Below are positions 3,369 to 17,470 of a stretch of DNA of 28,356 nt, piece by piece. The DNA is from a virus: the IMG/VR virus record IMGVR_UViG_3300043427_003205, positions 1 to 28,356 of that record; one strand, written 5' to 3'. The position numbers and the translations under genes are program-made. Positions within the stretch are counted from its first letter, which is position 1. Every line of letters begins with the position of its first letter. The notes beneath the pieces were generated by a model, which saw nothing but the letters and a program-made list of their open reading frames with translations, ran no database searches and was not told the origin of the DNA.

Positions 3369-5281
3369 TGCAGCGTCTTGACTACGAGATAATTCGTGGT
3401 CCTAAGGATGCTTCTACATTGAAGACGATGTTGAAGCGGATGGTATCGACGAATAAGTGCTTAGGCGTGGATACGGAAACAACAGGACTTGATCCGCTTG
3501 TGAATCAAGTACGTTTAATTCAGATCGGGTCTGCTGACTTCGCACTGATCGTCGATCTCGATGGGTGGCGACGGCCAGGCGAACGTGCGGTGCCGTGGAA
3601 ATCACCAGGATTGCGGGAGTTGAAGAGCTACCTCGAGAGCGGAGCCCCGAAGGTGCTGCAGAATGCTGCGTTTGACCTGAACTTCCTGGGAGGTGAGGGA
3701 GTCGTCCTCGGGGGTGCGCTGTTCGACACGATGGTAGCCGCGAAGCTTGTGAACAATGGCTGTGGTGTGCGCAACGACTTGGGATCGATTACTGATCGTG
3801 TGCTTAAAGTCAAGCTTCCTAAGGAGCTGCAAAAGGCTGATTGGTCTGGCGAGATAACCGATGAGATGTTTCATTACGCAGCGCGAGATGTGATATGTCT
3901 GCCGATGCTTGTGAAGCCTTTGTCTGAAGCGCTGGTTGGATCGAAGATTAAGCCAGGCTTTACGTTGTGGGATTTGTTTCAGATTGAGATGGAAGTATTG
4001 AAGCCGATTGCGTTGATGCAAGGGCATGGTTTTGCTTTTGATCGAAAGAATGCGATTGAGTTACGCGCTCAGCTAGAGGAAGAAGCTGAGGCGTTGAAAC
4101 TGTCGTTCCTTCAGCTTTTAGAGGTGGAAATCAAGAAGCGACACTCAGAGGAGTCAGGTTTCTGGTTACCTCGTGAGGCAGATGGGAGCTTCAACACCAG
4201 GGAAAAGGAGTCGGGCTCGGTGCGGAAGGGCACGAAGCTTTACGCCGGGTTCAACCCGAGGTCGACCAAACAAATGGCCCAGCGGTTTGAGCAGGCCGGG
4301 ATTCTGCTGCCGCCAGATGAGAAGGGTGTCACGAGCCTGGATCAAAACCTGCTTGCGTTCTTACGAAAAGACTACGAGTTGATCGACAAGTATTTGACGT
4401 GGAAGACAGCTGTTACGCGCGTCTCCAGTATGGATACGTTGCTAGAAGCGATCGGCCCTGATGGTCGCATTCACTGCAATTACAAGCAGATGGGGACGGA
4501 GACGGGGCGTCTGTCGGCAGCGTCGCCGAATTTGCAGCAGGTGAATCGGAGCCCTGAGTTTCGGAGCAAGTTCATTGCGGAACCCGGGCACGTCCTCGTG
4601 GTGGCCGACTTCAGTCAGATCGAGCTGCGGGTGGCGGCGGAGCTCTCGGGGGAGGAGCGGATGCTCGAGGCATACCGGGCCGGGAGGGATCTGCACACCG
4701 AGACCGCAGCACTGATGACGGGTGTCGCCCTCGGGGAAGTCACCAAGAAGCAGCGCACTTCGGCCAAGGTGGCCAACTTCGGACTGCTCTACGGAGCTGG
4801 GGCGGCGACTCTGCGCAAGCAAGCTGTCGCTCAGTACGGCATTGATATAGAGCTCGAAGAAGCTCGTGAGATCGTCAACGGCTTTCGTAGTGCTTATCCT
4901 CGCCTTTATCAGTGGCAAGTGCAAGAGGGCAACAAGACGACGAAGGCGGTGACGACCGCTCTCGGGAGGAGGCGGATGCTCGTGGGGTTCAACGACAAAT
5001 ACACGACGCGGATCAACACCCAGGTGCAAGGGACCGCCGGGGACATTGCCAAGCTGGCGATTCGACGCTTGTGGCGCGAGATTTGTCAAGCGCCTGGGGG
5101 AGAAGCGAAGCTCATCGCCATGGTGCACGACGAGATCGTGCTCGAGGTGAGGGCTGAAGCCGCGGAGCATTGGTCTCAGGTGCTCAAGCGCTGCATGGAG
5201 GAAGCGGGCGCGGAGATCTGTAAGGAAGTGCCCATCGTTGCTGAGGTGTCGACAGGAGCGACGTGGGCAGACGCGAAGTGA
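3332..5281 (+). CDS. Family A DNA polymerase with 3'-5' exonuclease (DNA polymerase I-like)
   Basis: Phage replicative polymerase that copies DNA and proofreads. Exonuclease motifs: Exo I DTETTG (D47), Exo II NAAFD (N111-D115), Exo III YAARD (Y182-D186). Polymerase motifs: A DFSQIELR (about 426), B QRTSAKVANFGLLYG (about 474-488), C VHDE (598-601). There is no 5'-3' exonuclease domain, as in T7-like and many phage Pol I relatives. The position equivalent to E. coli Pol I 762 is Phe (F483). Start choice is uncertain: ATG at 3332 is given, but the TTG at 3368 or the ATG at 3416 are possible because the first 12 codons lie antisense to the small minus-strand gene. Composition alternates along the gene (A/T-rich at about 3780-4180, GC-rich after 4180). 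It follows the two helicase genes and precedes a regulator gene. Confidence 0.96.
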   Translation: MPSAQATRNAEALQRLDYEIIRGPKDASTLKTMLKRMVSTNKCLGVDTETTGLDPLVNQVRLIQIGSADFALIVDLDGWRRPGERAVPWKSPGLRELKSYLESGAPKVLQNAAFDLNFLGGEGVVLGGALFDTMVAAKLVNNGCGVRNDLGSITDRVLKVKLPKELQKADWSGEITDEMFHYAARDVICLPMLVKPLSEALVGSKIKPGFTLWDLFQIEMEVLKPIALMQGHGFAFDRKNAIELRAQLEEEAEALKLSFLQLLEVEIKKRHSEESGFWLPREADGSFNTREKESGSVRKGTKLYAGFNPRSTKQMAQRFEQAGILLPPDEKGVTSLDQNLLAFLRKDYELIDKYLTWKTAVTRVSSMDTLLEAIGPDGRIHCNYKQMGTETGRLSAASPNLQQVNRSPEFRSKFIAEPGHVLVVADFSQIELRVAAELSGEERMLEAYRAGRDLHTETAALMTGVALGEVTKKQRTSAKVANFGLLYGAGAATLRKQAVAQYGIDIELEEAREIVNGFRSAYPRLYQWQVQEGNKTTKAVTTALGRRRMLVGFNDKYTTRINTQVQGTAGDIAKLAIRRLWREICQAPGGEAKLIAMVHDEIVLEVRAEAAEHWSQVLKRCMEEAGAEICKEVPIVAEVSTGATWADAK

Positions 5282-5342
5282 GGCGGCGATTTACGCTGCA
5301 GGCTTGTGCAACCTAGTCTGGTTAGGCCTTCCACTTATCCCA

Positions 5343-5726
5343 ATGCTGACAGGCGCAGAACTGATCGATTTCGTCAAGGCGTCGGAATCGGCCAACGACA
5401 TGGAGCTCGCTCGTGCTGCTGGTTATGTGCGCACGACCAAGACTGGTAAGGAGCAGGTTCTGAAGAAAGCCTTCACGAACGCTCTGCTTGCTGCCAAAGG
5501 ACTCGAGCGTCCGATGGGCCGCGGGCCCGGCAAGACGGCCCGCTATGAGACCTCGGTTCACAAGAACGGTGTCATCCTGATCGGCAAGACGTACTCGGAG
5601 GTCTTCGGCCTGAACCCCGGCGACTTCCTGGACATCGTCATCGAGGCTGACTGCATCAAGCTGGTGCCGCAGCCCTTCGATGAGGAGGCTGAGGTGGCCG
5701 AAACCAAAGGCAAGGCCAAGGGCTGA
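5343..5726 (+). CDS. Cyanobacterial AbrB-like transcriptional regulator (cyAbrB family)
   Basis: Predicted DNA-binding regulator of 127 residues. The N-terminal part (MLTGAELIDFVKASESANDM ... LARAAGYVRTTKTGKEQ ... AFTNALLAAKGL) matches my memory of cyanobacterial cyAbrB proteins. Residues about 60-115 (TSVHKNGVILIGKTYSEVF ... LNPGDFLDIVI ... IKLVPQ) resemble the AbrB/SpoVT swapped-hairpin barrel that binds DNA. The C-terminus is acidic then lysine-rich. The reading frame is open upstream into the polymerase gene, but the ATG at 5343 starts exactly where family similarity begins. In cyanobacteria cyAbrB proteins are global regulators of carbon and nitrogen genes. A phage copy could act on phage promoters or modify host transcription; that role is inference. 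The next gene begins 3 bases after its stop. Confidence 0.85.
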   Translation: MLTGAELIDFVKASESANDMELARAAGYVRTTKTGKEQVLKKAFTNALLAAKGLERPMGRGPGKTARYETSVHKNGVILIGKTYSEVFGLNPGDFLDIVIEADCIKLVPQPFDEEAEVAETKGKAKG

Positions 5727-5729
5727 CCT

Positions 5730-5957
5730 GTGAGCAGCGCTGAAGAACGCGCTCGGTTGCTGAGTCGTCTTCAGCGCATCGCGGAGAAGCTCCCTAGTGG
5801 GCTTCTCCACCGCTTGGTATTAGATGCGCAGTTTTTTCACGATTGGAACATGCGTAAGAAAGGTGCGCGATCATCAGCGCGCCTTTCTCAATATAAAGCC
5901 CGCATAGAGCGGGCAGATGAAGCTTATTGGAAAAGAATCAAGCAGGGTTTGAGCTAA
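5730..5957 (+). CDS. Small basic hypothetical protein, 75 residues
   Basis: Starts with GTG 3 bases after the AbrB-like gene, so it is probably co-transcribed and coupled with it. The protein is basic and helical (LLSRLQRIAEKL ... QYKARIERADEAYWKRIKQGLS) with no signal peptide or membrane segment. I do not recognise the family; small phage DNA-binding proteins can look like this. Its last 4 bases overlap the end of the convergent excisionase-like gene. The coding DNA also contains three strong hairpins (listed separately), so part of the conservation here could be at RNA level. Confidence 0.65.
   Translation: MSSAEERARLLSRLQRIAEKLPSGLLHRLVLDAQFFHDWNMRKKGARSSARLSQYKARIERADEAYWKRIKQGLS
5783..5914 (+). 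other. Cluster of three strong hairpins inside a small gene
   Basis: Hairpin 1: GGAGAAGC (5783-5790) pairs with GCTTCTCC (5801-5808), 8 bp around a 10-base loop. Hairpin 2: positions 5857-5868 pair with 5877-5888, 12 bp with one G-T wobble and an 8-base loop. Hairpin 3: GCCCGC (5898-5903) pairs with GCGGGC (5909-5914), 6 bp with a 5-base loop. None is followed by a T tract on either strand, so simple intrinsic termination is unlikely. They lie just before the convergent boundary with the integration genes. They may be a structured RNA, a processing region or a rho-type boundary; role unknown. Confidence 0.55.
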
Positions 5958-6259
5958 CTCACCCTATTCCAGAACTGGTTGACAGCCTTGATACGGTGAA
6001 ATCTGTATCGGGGCCTTTTTGCTGTGCCGATGTTGCGGATGGCGTCACCGTGGATGATGCCTTTGCTCATCTGGTACACGAGTTGCTTGGGGTCTTTTAG
6101 ACTCACTAAACGGCAGAACTCTCGAGAGTCGACCCACTCACTGAGTTCTGTTTTAGCTTTATCGCTCTGTTGTTGATCGATGAACTCGATCAGCAGCTTC
6201 TCGATGCGTGCGATGCGGTCGGTGAGCTCATCGAGGACGAGGGGATCGATCACGGTCAC
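5954..6259 (-). CDS. Small DNA-binding protein, excisionase-like (candidate recombination directionality factor)
   Basis: 101 residues. The N-terminal half is a coiled-coil-like amphipathic helix (LDELTDRIARIEKLLIEFID). The C-terminal half (WVDSREFCRLVSLKDPKQLVYQMSKG ... RNIGTAKRPRYRFHR ... VNQFWNRV) reads like a helix-turn-helix followed by a basic wing, as in Xis/MerR-type small proteins. It lies 44 bases downstream of the integrase on the same strand, as expected for an int-xis pair. The start is GTG at 6259 with a second in-frame GTG two codons later. Its stop overlaps the stop region of the convergent 75-residue gene. Function is inferred from context and fold impression; it could instead be a general DNA-binding protein. 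Confidence 0.7.
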   Translation of the reverse strand: MTVIDPLVLDELTDRIARIEKLLIEFIDQQQSDKAKTELSEWVDSREFCRLVSLKDPKQLVYQMSKGIIHGDAIRNIGTAKRPRYRFHRIKAVNQFWNRVS

Positions 6260-6275
6260 GGGGATGGGCCTATCC

Positions 6276-6291
6276 GGGTCTGGTTAGACCC
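6276..6291. other. Inverted repeat between integrase and excisionase-like genes
   Basis: A perfect 6-bp stem with a 4-base loop (GGGTCT, GGTT, AGACCC) in the 44-base gap between the integrase stop and the next gene on the minus strand. The central word TCTGGTTAG also occurs at about 5318 in the gap upstream of the AbrB-like gene. No T tract follows on the minus strand, so this is not a standard terminator. It could be an operator or a mild attenuator. Confidence 0.35.
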
Positions 6292-6303
6292 TAGCACCAT
6301 TCT

Positions 6304-7371
6304 TCAAAGCTGAATGCCGGCCAGGGCTTTCTGGATCCGGTCGGCCTCGATCCACCGTTTGTAGACGGCCTGGTGCGTGCTCAGGCTGTGTCCCATGAGT
6401 CTTGCCCCGAGCTCGGGGGCGACGCCGCGATCCATGAGCCGGAGGGCGTAAGCGTGGCGGAGGTTGTAGGGGCGGATCGCCACGCCGTCGCGATCCAGGG
6501 CGTCGAGGAAGGCTTTGGTGATGGTGCGGGCGCTCTGCCGAGGACGGTCGAGCTCGTGGAGGTGGAAGTGGGTCACCCAGCGGCTGGGGCAGGGGGTGAC
6601 GCGGCGGGCGCCGGTTTTGGTGGCGTCGCCGATCTGGATCCAGTCCTCGGGGAGCCACTCGAGGGCGGCGCACTCGTGGGGTCGAAGGCCGTAGGCGGCG
6701 CACATTCCCCAGGTCCATTGCCAGTGAGGGAGGCGGATGCGAGACCAGGCGGATTCGATGGCGGCGTCGGTGGGGATGTCGCGCTCGGTGAGCTGCTCGA
6801 CGCCGTAGCCGCGGCAGGCGGCGAGGAGGGGTTCGTGGTCGAGGCCCAGGGACTTGGCGACCTGAGCGAGGAGGTTGCCTTGGTCGCGGCGGCTGGCGCT
6901 GCCGGCGGGCATGCCACGGATGATGCGCAGGAGGATGGCTTCGGTGGCCGGGCCGGCGATCGGGAGCTTGTTGAGGGCCGGGCGCCATTTCTTTGACCAG
7001 GCGACGGAGCCGCGTTCGGGGTCGCGGGCGTATTTGGTGGCGTGGAGGCGTTCCGCGGCGGCGCGGAAGTCGGCCATGGTGAGGCCGCCCTCGGGGGTGG
7101 GGGCCGCGGGGGCCTCCCAGGCGGCCCAGGAGAAGGAGCCGGTGCGGAGCTGGTGACTGAGCTCGATGGCCTTGCGCTCGGCCTCGGAGAGGGCGGCGTA
7201 GTCGGCGGGGAGGCCCAGGGCGATGCGCTGGCGGCGGGCCGGACCGGTCCCCTTTCGGTCCACCAGGGTCGCCCGGAGGACCAAGCTGGCCTTGCGGCGC
7301 TCGATGGCGCACTTGTGGTGGCCTGCCTTCAGGCGGGTGTTGAGGTCGGCGAGCGCGGCGTCGATGGACAC
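6304..7371 (-). CDS. int: Tyrosine-family site-specific integrase
   Basis: Catalyses recombination between attP and a host attachment site. The tetrad residues are visible: box I arginine in GLRPHE (R230), box II arginine in YNLRHAYALR (R305), histidine in LMGHS (H328) and nucleophile tyrosine in HQAVYKRW (Y337). The usual box II first histidine is tyrosine (YNLRH), a common variant. I chose the GTG at 7371, giving 355 residues, because similarity to cyanobacterial integrases (SIDAALADLNTRL ... IERRKASLVLRATL ... QRIALGLP) begins there. The frame stays open up to 7617 but that extension reads through a terminator and a tRNA fragment. It reads in the same direction as the tRNA-Pro fragment, so after integration it would lie directly downstream of the restored host tRNA. 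A tyrosine integrase implies a temperate life cycle or temperate ancestry. Confidence 0.92.
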   Translation of the reverse strand: MSIDAALADLNTRLKAGHHKCAIERRKASLVLRATLVDRKGTGPARRQRIALGLPADYAALSEAERKAIELSHQLRTGSFSWAAWEAPAAPTPEGGLTMADFRAAAERLHATKYARDPERGSVAWSKKWRPALNKLPIAGPATEAILLRIIRGMPAGSASRRDQGNLLAQVAKSLGLDHEPLLAACRGYGVEQLTERDIPTDAAIESAWSRIRLPHWQWTWGMCAAYGLRPHECAALEWLPEDWIQIGDATKTGARRVTPCPSRWVTHFHLHELDRPRQSARTITKAFLDALDRDGVAIRPYNLRHAYALRLMDRGVAPELGARLMGHSLSTHQAVYKRWIEADRIQKALAGIQL

Positions 7372-7374
7372 GGC

Positions 7375-7395
7375 GGTGGACCGGAAGGTGGACCG
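7375..7395 (+). repeat. Candidate arm-type binding sites, left pair (GGTGGACCG x2)
   Basis: GGTGGACCG occurs at 7375-7383 and 7387-7395, a 12-base period, just upstream of the integrase start. A matching pair lies on the other side of the tRNA fragment at 7606-7625, and an inverted copy (CGGTCCACC) lies at 7256-7264 inside the integrase gene. Paired repeats on both sides of a core resemble the arm sites bound by integrase N-terminal domains or excisionases in lambda-type attP. Assignment as arm sites is inference. Confidence 0.6.
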
Positions 7396-7440
7396 ATTCT
7401 GTCGTCTGCGTTGGTCTGCTTGGACCCCGCAAGCACTTAA

Positions 7441-7470
7441 ATAGAAAAACCGCCTCCTGTGGGAAGCGGC
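7441..7470 (-). terminator. Intrinsic terminator on the minus strand just after the tRNA-Pro fragment
   Basis: Reading the minus strand, a 9-bp stem (arms at 7470-7462 and 7457-7449, with two G-T wobbles) closes a 4-base loop and is followed by five T residues (7449-7445). It lies about 32 bases downstream of the tRNA 3' end, where a host tRNA-Pro terminator would be expected. The plus-strand reading lacks a T tract. The phage seems to carry a tRNA terminator together with the tRNA 3' end, which would separate host tRNA transcription from integrase after integration. Confidence 0.8.
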
Positions 7471-7502
7471 TCTGCGACTGGGATCTCGGGATTTGACTGG
7501 AT

Positions 7503-7547
7503 CGGAGCGACAGGATTTGAACCTGCGACCCCCACTACCCCAAAGTG
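7503..7547 (-). other. attP core candidate: 3' half of tRNA-Pro(GGG)
   Basis: On the minus strand these 45 bases match the 3' part of a bacterial tRNA-Pro. They include four bases of the 5' anticodon stem, the loop TTGGGGT (anticodon GGG), the 3' anticodon stem AGTGG, a variable loop, a T arm with loop TTCAAAT, and the 3' acceptor strand CGCTCCG with discriminator A. The D arm and 5' acceptor strand are missing, so it is not a functional tRNA. Phage-type genes lie on both sides and the integrase is adjacent, as expected for an attP that would recreate the tRNA 3' end. Could also be an attL or attR if one side were host DNA, but the polymerase and helicases on one side and tail genes on the other argue against that. 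Confidence 0.85.
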
Positions 7548-7605
7548 CTAGGTAAGAGCTCAGATCGCTTGCAGTAACTGAGCAGCAGGGTTTGGCATGA
7601 GCAGG

Positions 7606-7625
7606 GGTGGACCGCAAGTGGACCG
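7606..7625 (+). repeat. Candidate arm-type binding sites, right pair (GTGGACCG x2)
   Basis: GTGGACCG starts at 7607 and 7618, an 11-base period, 59 bases beyond the tRNA core on the side opposite the integrase. The pair mirrors the left pair in sequence and spacing. It overlaps the first codons of the endolysin frame, so integrase or excisionase binding here could affect lysis-gene expression. Site identity is inferred. Confidence 0.6.
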
Positions 7626-8794
7626 ACCTAGGCTTTGAAAAGTGGTCAGGTAAGCCCGTGGTTCAGGCTCGTAACAAAACGTTTTCGAACACCTGGGATG
7701 GGGTCGTTGCCGCCGCGCAGGCGACCGGCGCTCGCTTCCCCGAGCTCGTGGCGGCGCAATGGGCCCTGGAGAGTGGGTGGGGCAAGCACACGAGTGGCAA
7801 GAATAACTTCTTCGGTCTGAAGGGAGGTGGAACAGCAAAGCAAACACAAGAGGTAATCAATGGTAGAACTGTGACTATCACAGCGAGCTTTATTGATTTC
7901 CCTGATCTTGTGACTTGTGTAAGTTATTTGGTATCGCGTTGGTACAAGGATTGGAAAGACTATAAAGGTGTCAATAATGCAGTTAATCGTGAAGTTGCTG
8001 CGCGTTCGTTGGTTGAGCAAGGCTATGCAACTGATTCGGACTATGCCGAAAAGCTCATTGCACTGATGAATGAGAAAGCTCCGGTCTCGGGGGAGAAGCC
8101 GGGCGTTTCAACGAAAAACACGCCTCTATTTCAAATCACTGCGCTACAAGACACCTGGCTAAAGAAGGAGCCGGTACAGGCCACCGAGCTCGGGGGAAAG
8201 GAAAGGGTGCGCGTGGTGAAGGGGCGAGGCTATGCAGTTCTTGCATATTCCGAGGTCGCGGCGGATGCGCATGCGCGGGTGGAGCTAGCCGCGGGATCAG
8301 GGACGTGGTTTGTGTTCGAGCCTCATTGGAAGCGGGATCAGCCGATCGGTGAGGCGCTATCGGTTTCGGTGGATTGGCACGATTTCGACTGTCTTGTCAC
8401 CCCGAACCTGACTGTCGGTGAAGTTCTGCAGTGGGACCGGCGGAGGATTCCGGGGCCGAGTGCGGCAGTTCGGGCTCGGTTGCTCAAGACCGCACAGGAG
8501 TTTCAGGCAATTCGGGAGGCGTGGGGACAGCCGCTTGGGGTGACGAGCTTCTACAGGCCGGAGCCCATCAACAGGCAGGTGGGCGGCGTGCCCAACTCGA
8601 GGCATGTCACGGGGCAGGCCATGGACATCTACCCGGTGAACCGCGGTCTCGAGGAGTTCTATCAGTGGATTCGCCTCCGGTGGCGTGGCGGCCTCGGGGA
8701 TGGCCGACGCAAGGGCTTCATTCACCTCGACACTGATGGTGGTGGCTTTGTGCCAGGGGGCGGAGCTACACCATCAGCGATGTGGGACTACTGA
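7607..8794 (+). CDS. Two-domain endolysin: glucosaminidase plus M15-type peptidase
   Basis: Peptidoglycan hydrolase for host lysis. Residues about 28-160 form an N-acetylglucosaminidase (FlgJ/LYZ2-like) domain with WALESGWGKH (probable catalytic E55) and NNFFGLKG. Residues about 170-250 resemble an SH3-like linker domain. Residues about 255-395 form a peptidase M15A-like domain with SFYRPEPINRQVGG, SRHVTGQAMD (H333, D340) and FIHLD (H373), the expected zinc ligands and partner motif. There is no signal peptide, so export would need a holin-type partner. The start is uncertain: GTG 7607 is the first possible start after an in-frame stop at 7598, and GTG 7658 is an alternative that would clear the arm-site repeats. 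The gene is alone on the plus strand, flanked by attP and by convergent minus-strand lysis genes. Confidence 0.9.
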   Translation: MDRKWTDLGFEKWSGKPVVQARNKTFSNTWDGVVAAAQATGARFPELVAAQWALESGWGKHTSGKNNFFGLKGGGTAKQTQEVINGRTVTITASFIDFPDLVTCVSYLVSRWYKDWKDYKGVNNAVNREVAARSLVEQGYATDSDYAEKLIALMNEKAPVSGEKPGVSTKNTPLFQITALQDTWLKKEPVQATELGGKERVRVVKGRGYAVLAYSEVAADAHARVELAAGSGTWFVFEPHWKRDQPIGEALSVSVDWHDFDCLVTPNLTVGEVLQWDRRRIPGPSAAVRARLLKTAQEFQAIREAWGQPLGVTSFYRPEPINRQVGGVPNSRHVTGQAMDIYPVNRGLEEFYQWIRLRWRGGLGDGRRKGFIHLDTDGGGFVPGGGATPSAMWDY

Positions 8795-9859: not shown

Positions 9860-10357
9860 CTAGGGCGCAGGCACCCAGGCTTCATTGATCTCGGGTGTGC
9901 TGGGGTCGTCGGCGCGATAGGTGCCGTCTGGATTGCGGGCGCGAACTCTGGAGTTGAACACCTCCATCACATCTGACGGCAGATGACAGGCTGAGGCGAC
10001 GGCAGACACCTGATCACGCAGCGCATCGGAGATACAGCCGGCTTCACGCAACGCAACCCAGCAGGCACCGAAATCAGCAGGGCCAACGGATGCCATGGCA
10101 ATGGTTGCCGCTGGCAGGGCTAAGGCCGCAGCAGGTGCAATGCCAACGGCAGAAACCAGCGCTTCGTTCACATCGGGGCTGGAAAGGAGTGCTGCCTTAA
10201 AGGTACCCCAGTCGGGGGCGGGTGGTATCGCCAGGTATGCGGCGATAGCAGCCTCCTGTTCTTCGCGATTCATGGACAGCGGCAACACCAGCGGCTCGCG
10301 ATCAGGCGCAGTGTCGTCGGTGACGATCAAAGTGCTTGCGGTGTAGGAAAGTGCCAT
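9860..10357 (-). CDS. Hypothetical protein following the collagen-like fibre gene
   Basis: 165 residues: a beta-rich start ([20 protein letters not shown]), an alanine-rich helical middle (AAALALPAATIAMASVG, FGACWVALREAGC), and a hydrophilic C-terminus (VRARNPDGTYRADDPSTPEINEAWVPAP). The hydrophilic tail might be exposed. Its ATG overlaps the fibre stop by one base (TGATG), so it is coupled to the fibre gene and may be a fibre accessory or assembly protein. I do not recognise a family. Confidence 0.75.
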   Translation of the reverse strand: MALSYTASTLIVTDDTAPDREPLVLPLSMNREEQEAAIAAYLAIPPAPDWGTFKAALLSSPDVNEALVSAVGIAPAAALALPAATIAMASVGPADFGACWVALREAGCISDALRDQVSAVASACHLPSDVMEVFNSRVRARNPDGTYRADDPSTPEINEAWVPAP

Positions 10358-17078: not shown

Positions 17079-17470
17079 TAGAGCGCAGCGGTTGGCTTGC
17101 CGGAGATCTGGAAGTCAATGTCGCAAACTTGAGCGGCGCCGAAGCTGGCACTCAGGCCGACGCGAGTGATGACAGCAGAGGCCGTGACTTTCTTGCCAGT
17201 CGCCGAATCGAAGACCATCTCAACACCCGAGAGCGTGGAGTTATCGGCGTAGACCTGGGTCAGCAGCGCGTCGGTAGCAGCGTCCTCGGGGTCGTAGAAG
17301 AGGCTGGCGCTGCCGGAGGTGGACCGCAAGCCGCTGATGAAGGTGCGATCCAAGTCGCCTTGCTTGGTCGTCGGCAGCGCTTCCCGGTCGATGGACAGCG
17401 AGATGTCCCGGCATTTGCCGATGCGTGTGCCGCCGAAGAACAGCGCTGCAGTGGTGCCAGTGAGGATCAT
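17078..17470 (-). CDS. Tail tube-fold protein (second copy)
   Basis: 130 residues with tube-fold features: GGTRIGKCRDISLSIDREAL, TTKQGDLDRTFISGLRSTSGSASLFYDP, and a closing strand AQVCDIDFQISGKP. The SGLRSTSGSAS segment matches the common tube motif where a loop follows 'DxxxxGLRxxSGS'. ATG 17470, 21 bases after the upstream gene. It may form a heteropolymer or adaptor with the 283-residue protein. Assignment comes from motif memory only. Confidence 0.7.
   Translation of the reverse strand: MILTGTTAALFFGGTRIGKCRDISLSIDREALPTTKQGDLDRTFISGLRSTSGSASLFYDPEDAATDALLTQVYADNSTLSGVEMVFDSATGKKVTASAVITRVGLSASFGAAQVCDIDFQISGKPTAAL

Follow-up and report, generated by a model that had tools for sequence, protein, structure and literature searches.

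Upstream of int, the tyrosine integrase gene of a linear virus record of 28,356 bp (IMG/VR record IMGVR_UViG_3300043427_003205; this full length is referred to here as the window), four same-strand copies of the repeat GTGGACCG flank a fragment of a tRNA-Pro(GGG) gene, and the whole resembles a phage attachment site (attP). The int gene (6304..7371, minus strand) encodes 355 aa, with a likely GTG start at 7371 and a likely nucleophile at Tyr337. In the int sense, in which the repeat reads CGGTCCAC, the elements follow one another as outer pair, tRNA-Pro fragment, terminator, GGTCC/GACC pair, inner pair, and the GTG of int at 7371. Repeated arm-type sites thus flank a core that also occurs in the bacterial site attB, as in attP sites of the lambda/L5 type.

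All of these elements are placed on the minus strand, and position zero is taken as the A of ACTTTGGGG. The outer (P′) arm sites, a distal copy at 7618..7625 and an inner-facing copy at 7607..7614, lie at −79 and −68 relative to the attachment core and are arranged from 7625 to 7607 as CGGTCCAC-3-CGGTCCAC. The inner (P) arm sites, a core-facing copy at 7388..7395 and a copy beside the int start at 7376..7383, lie at +151 and +163, arranged from 7395 to 7376 as CGGTCCAC-4-CGGTCCAC. The core region between them (7501..7546) comprises 46 bp of tRNA-Pro(GGG), namely the anticodon loop and everything 3′ of it, identical to intact picocyanobacterial tRNA-Pro genes. Crossover probably occurs in the anticodon loop TTGGGGT (7537-7543), because attP sites with the 3′ half of the tRNA have only about CACTTTGGGGTAGTG in common with attP sites containing the 5′ half. 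The intrinsic terminator that follows the tRNA fragment (7440..7473; fold −18.2 kcal/mol, z −4.0), with a similar hairpin in the 3′-half relatives, would be expected to end the transcript of the restored tRNA.

The GGTCC/GACC pair (7413..7427, 10 bp apart) has a similar element at the same place in relatives, a GGNCC/GNCC pair near +120/+130, which is weak in L003 and L025. Directly downstream of int lies a gene for a helix-turn-helix (HTH)-like protein of 101 aa (5954..6259, minus strand), which is present and adjacent to int in all close relatives. A few of these relatives weakly match HTH_17 (6e-4) or a Cox-like excisionase (2.6e-4); the window copy matches neither. Since the pair is alike whatever the arm word, and every close relative has the protein, the two are the best candidates for an excisionase (X) site and its protein.

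The repeat occurs six times in the window, on the plus strand at 7376-7383, 7388-7395, 7607-7614, 7618-7625, and 17319-17326, and on the minus strand at 7256-7263. By chance, 1.04 copies are expected; across 100 dinucleotide shuffles the maximum was three, and none reached six. Within 7372-7700, none of 2000 dinucleotide shuffles gave any 8-mer with four same-strand copies. The starts at 7376, 7388, 7607, and 7618 had been given correctly in an initial annotation of this DNA, as had the expectation of about one chance copy per window, with which the shuffles agree. The further copy that it noticed near 17318 is present at 17319 and is a chance-level occurrence. The same annotation counted an inverted copy inside int (7256-7264) with the site; that sequence does exist, at 7256-7263, and it amounts to the int codons GTG-GAC-CGA (Val37-Asp38-Arg39). 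It is confined to integrases with the sequence LVDR and has no counterpart in relatives having other repeat words, and for these reasons we rejected it as a fifth site.

The predicted model of int has the tyrosine recombinase fold and matches Tn1549 Int and XerA. Residues R230, K252, R305/H306, H328, and Y337 are invariant across 16 relatives, and fold and conserved Arg...Lys...Arg-His...His...Tyr residues together place int among the tyrosine recombinases, with Tyr at position 302 of the H-x-x-R box. In profile searches int matched phrog_1 integrase (1.8e-11) and Pfam Phage_integrase (2.3e-4, under the gathering score). In the model, an N-terminal domain (N-domain; aa 1-80; helix, three strands, helix) is separable from the core-binding and catalytic domains, which begin at about aa 97. 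Two other readings of the region were rejected: a TTG start at 7617, proposed by the open reading frame finder, from which translation would run through the tRNA fragment, and a reading frame at 6284-7432, which is a wrong-frame overlap, int occupying the other frame. Given the likely GTG start, all four attP repeats fall outside int.

Relatives were collected from IMG/VR scans using int, int alignments, and the tRNA core. About 20 distinct close integrases were found, mostly 51-69% identical to that of the window (35-41% for L010 and L012), with more distant ones besides, and nearly all close relatives share the attP layout of the window. Their outer pair lies at −78 to −80 (spacing 11, in a few 12), and their inner pair at +149 to +152 (spacing 11-12). 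The word that is repeated differs: CGGTCCAC in the window, L024, L181, L230, and the outer pair of L021; CAGTCCAC in L030; TAGTCCA/TAGGCCA (TAGKCCA) in L002, L003, L005, L029, and L008; TAAGCCA in L011, L013, L206, L023, L025, L026, L202, and L208; TAGTGAA in L205, L015, and L244; and TAGGCAA in L010 and L245. The four copies inside each phage change in concert. At the fixed offsets, they agree on average at 42.8 of 48 letters, compared with 17.7 ± 2.8 at slid positions, where the highest average among 5151 sets was 22.3.

Five relatives (L005, L006, L026, L029, and L041) carry the 5′ half of tRNA-Pro in attP, and their two arm pairs keep the usual spacing to the core. Integration of these phages would restore the tRNA at the end distal to int, apparently lacking the host promoter; no junction of this type was found among 400 genomes of the Vulcanococcus limneticus family. 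L202 has the arm word and geometry of L026 with a different core (CACTTGAAGGTAGTGG), which suggests that the tRNA target changed while the arms stayed. Distant relatives (L213, L219/L220, and L226; 27-31% identity) have matching repeat pairs, spaced 11-12, both close to int and 200-270 bp upstream; the words among them are TTAATTACG, TTTAGGGAA, and TTAATTAAC, and a tRNA-Leu is at the site in L219/L220. In L016 (about 5100-5450), a tRNA-Pro core lies between TAACGTGCAG-type repeats with a tRNA-Met gene adjoining, and no integrase of the int family was found at this locus. The cultured Planktothrix phage PaV-LD (L243, record 10239-10284) has a tRNA-Pro fragment ~120 bp upstream of an integrase that looks unrelated, and four GATTAGAC-type repeats lie in the interval; this may be a similar attP that has gone unrecognised.

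The arm word tracks the N-domain of the integrase, and not the catalytic domain or the intervening DNA. Arm-word distances correlate with those of integrase residues 18-56 (r 0.82, p 2e-4; Mantel, uncorrected for shared ancestry), as opposed to r 0.07 (p 0.25, same test and limit) for the catalytic domain. A nearest neighbour in the N-domain predicts the arm word in 17 of 19 cases, compared with 6 of 19 for the catalytic domain. Plain linkage of the inner arm with the N-domain was considered as the cause and rejected, because the outer pair alone, ~230 bp off across the core, tracks the N-domain nearly as well (r 0.78), while the DNA between does not: correlations were not significant for the stretch from outer pair to core (0.10), the region of the candidate excisionase site (0.13), or the 60 bp on the far side of the outer pair (−0.10). 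Moreover, several pairs of integrases are nearly identical in the catalytic domain (L026/L030 98%, L181/L206 96%, L005/L024 91%, L230/L008 88%), and N-domain and arm word differ in each of them. The predicted separability of the N-domain, together with its tracking of the arm word, suggests that it is the putative determinant of arm-DNA specificity.

Integrated copies constitute another line of evidence. A close int relative is present in 4 of the 400 genomes of the V. limneticus LL family. In V. limneticus LL itself (G009), after an intact tRNA-Pro come the terminator, the GGNCC pair, the inner CGGTCCAC pair, and int, and on a second contig the outer CGGTCCAC pair precedes a 3′ fragment of the same tRNA. 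G032 has the same arrangement with the word TTAGGCAAG, as does G241 with GTGTGAAT, in which both ends are on a single contig, 80.4 kb apart. These three prophages of picocyanobacterial genomes therefore have the inner pair at the junction attL and the matching outer pair at the junction attR, one pair per lysogen end, as expected for P and P′ arms. The split tRNA is restored in all three: tRNA-Pro(ggg) is called intact at attL, and a 3′ fragment remains at attR. It should be noted that ARAGORN calls a tRNA-Pro across the V. limneticus attR fragment as well. In the fourth genome (G169; L244), the int relative is not beside tRNA-Pro. A scan of genome contigs using int alone gave no match. In L178, a metagenome-assembled genome of Vulcanococcus sp. 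Clear-D1, the host tRNA-Pro is followed at a contig end by a phage-type terminator and GGNCC pair, which looks like the attL of a relic or unassembled prophage. All 14 picocyanobacterial genomes G001-G014 (L231-L239) encode at least one more distant int relative, mostly in frames of 393-517 aa; these look like a resident host gene.

In lambda and L5 integrases, the N-domain binds arm sites and the other domains bind core sites, the two being bridged by DNA bending. The locus is, in our opinion, very probably a complete attP of this type from a temperate picocyanobacterial cyanophage, with a heterobivalent integrase that would read paired arm sites and target tRNA-Pro. Seen in the sequences are the repeats with their fixed geometry, an arm word coupled to the N-domain, and integrated copies with one pair per end; binding, bending, the role of the excisionase, and autorepression of int we infer. 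The N-domain would hold the four GTGGACCG sites, a pair per arm with copies about one helical turn apart, while the core-binding and catalytic domains would act at the anticodon loop of tRNA-Pro, and bending would unite arm and core in a single intasome. After recombination with tRNA-Pro(GGG) of the host, the intact tRNA would stand beside int (attL, with the inner pair), and the outer pair would be left at the opposite end (attR), next to the tRNA fragment. Excision is probably driven by the small HTH protein encoded downstream of int, through binding to the GGNCC/GNCC pair, which lies between the core and the inner arm. Given that the inner pair directly adjoins the start of int, Int bound there probably represses its own gene as well, by analogy with KplE1 IntS. 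The claim of the initial annotation that the site is a full attP with P and P′ arms is strongly supported by the fixed-distance pairs, the word that follows the N-domain, and the prophages; the comparison it advised, for repeats at equal distances in the same integrase family, found pairs at the same core distances.

The position of the inner pair also bears on a different explanation, in which the repeats are operators of a transcription regulator and not arm sites, the inner pair serving int, and the outer pair, located where the 7607-8794 reading frame begins, serving an endolysin-like gene. We consider this very unlikely: distances to the core are fixed (149-152 and 78-80), whereas the distance from the inner pair to conserved N-terminal residues of int shifts by ~10 bp in the TAAGCCA group; the arm word follows the Int N-domain; and each prophage end has one pair. 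Excisionases bind tandem direct repeats in attP, and given that habit and the conserved HTH-like protein adjoining int, the four repeats might be bound by this protein instead of the integrase. Such an assignment is most improbable, as L026 and L037 (the latter with an L030-type integrase), and likewise L181 and L206, share nearly identical excisionase-like proteins with different arm words; the words are hence not set by this protein, and they track the N-domain. Chance or composition, i.e., GC-rich DNA with some repeated 8-mers, suffices together with coding for the copies at 7256 and 17319, and for the four attP copies its probability is practically nil, being already refuted by the dinucleotide shuffles, the conserved positions, and the concerted change across relatives.

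Several observations weigh against the attP interpretation. The N-domain has no confident structural match to any known arm-binding domain: its structure search gave ribosome hibernation factors at Z 5.5, under the trust level, and no solved arm-binding domain was among the matches listed, which does not exclude such a fold. Nor did the N-domain and excisionase alignments bring up anything useful when searched against PDB sequences. Within the tRNA-Pro set, the two most distant members, L010 and L012, fit the geometry poorly. Finally, the Mantel p-values ignore shared ancestry; nevertheless, the natural domain swaps break ancestry.

A further proposal, for which we judge the chances to be even, concerns a family of cyanophage integrases whose catalytic domain and tRNA-Pro target remain constant, while the arm-recognition domain, together with all four arm sites, is swapped or changes in step. 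If so, mutually blind integration systems would share one host site, and an amino-acid-to-DNA code would be legible in strands 2-3 of the N-domain. Candidate elements of this code are Arg33 with CGGTCCA, CAGTCCA, or TAGKCCA and Val/Ile33 with TAAGCCA, as well as Val37 and Arg47 with CGG and Pro37 and Gln47 with CAG. An arm word that changes along with one integrase domain makes a rule of protein-DNA reading testable, and the natural N-domain swaps already amount to an experiment on arm-site reading by integrases; the swap set could also supply non-cross-reacting integration tools for picocyanobacteria, all at tRNA-Pro.

The endolysin-like gene of the window (7658-8794, plus strand) fuses glucosaminidase and M15 peptidase domains and resembles in part the lysozyme genes found in Synechococcus phages, among them S-CBS1 and S-CBP3.

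The lambda attP has two arm sites on P and three on P′, uses IHF, and has a non-tRNA target. The window resembles it in having int beside attP, the core between two arms, arm sites apart from core sites, and a (here candidate) excisionase site on the int-side arm between core and arm sites; it differs in its two plus two direct copies and its tRNA-Pro target. In KplE1, attL likewise overlaps the upstream region of the integrase gene, and Int with the directionality factor TorI can repress intS (PMC2951348); autorepression was measured there and is presumed for the window. Among cyanophages, the T7-like P-SSP7 and S-TIP37 also have an attP that matches a portion of a host tRNA gene exactly, and int and attP are both required for their integration; unlike the window, they target tRNA-Leu, their attP is downstream of int, and no stable lysogens were found, and the portions of that report consulted describe no arm repeats (PMC8776855). 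S-LBS1, a published freshwater cyanosiphovirus with an integrase, has a different putative att motif, within coding genes. In the three reports consulted, cyanophage att sites are defined by core match or short motif only (PMC8776855, PMC2784084, PMC6157547); for the attP of the window, the two arms are described side by side with a likely crossover, natural lysogens, and a candidate excisionase and its site.

Further parallels are found in mycobacteriophages. For the cluster K1 phages CrimD, Anaya, and Adephagia, paired arm-type sites were proposed, and small arm-word differences in cluster K were proposed to be tied to N-terminal integrase residues (Pope et al. 2011, PMC3203893). As in the window, two pairs of short repeats surround the core 5′ of a tyrosine integrase gene, and a terminator lies between the core and one arm. 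In the K1 phages, one pair is inverted with respect to the other, integration targets tmRNA, and few positions of the word vary, whereas the family described here has direct pairs, a tRNA-Pro target, wide change of the word, and exchange of whole N-domains. L5 and Giles, as far as they are cited in that paper, share the direct orientation of arm-type site pairs and differ in their mycobacterial hosts. Since paired arm-type sites and residue-linked word differences had already been proposed for cluster K (PMC3203893), the attP itself is of a known, lambda/L5-type kind; what would be new to the specialist is the extent to which the arm word switches with exchanged N-domains.
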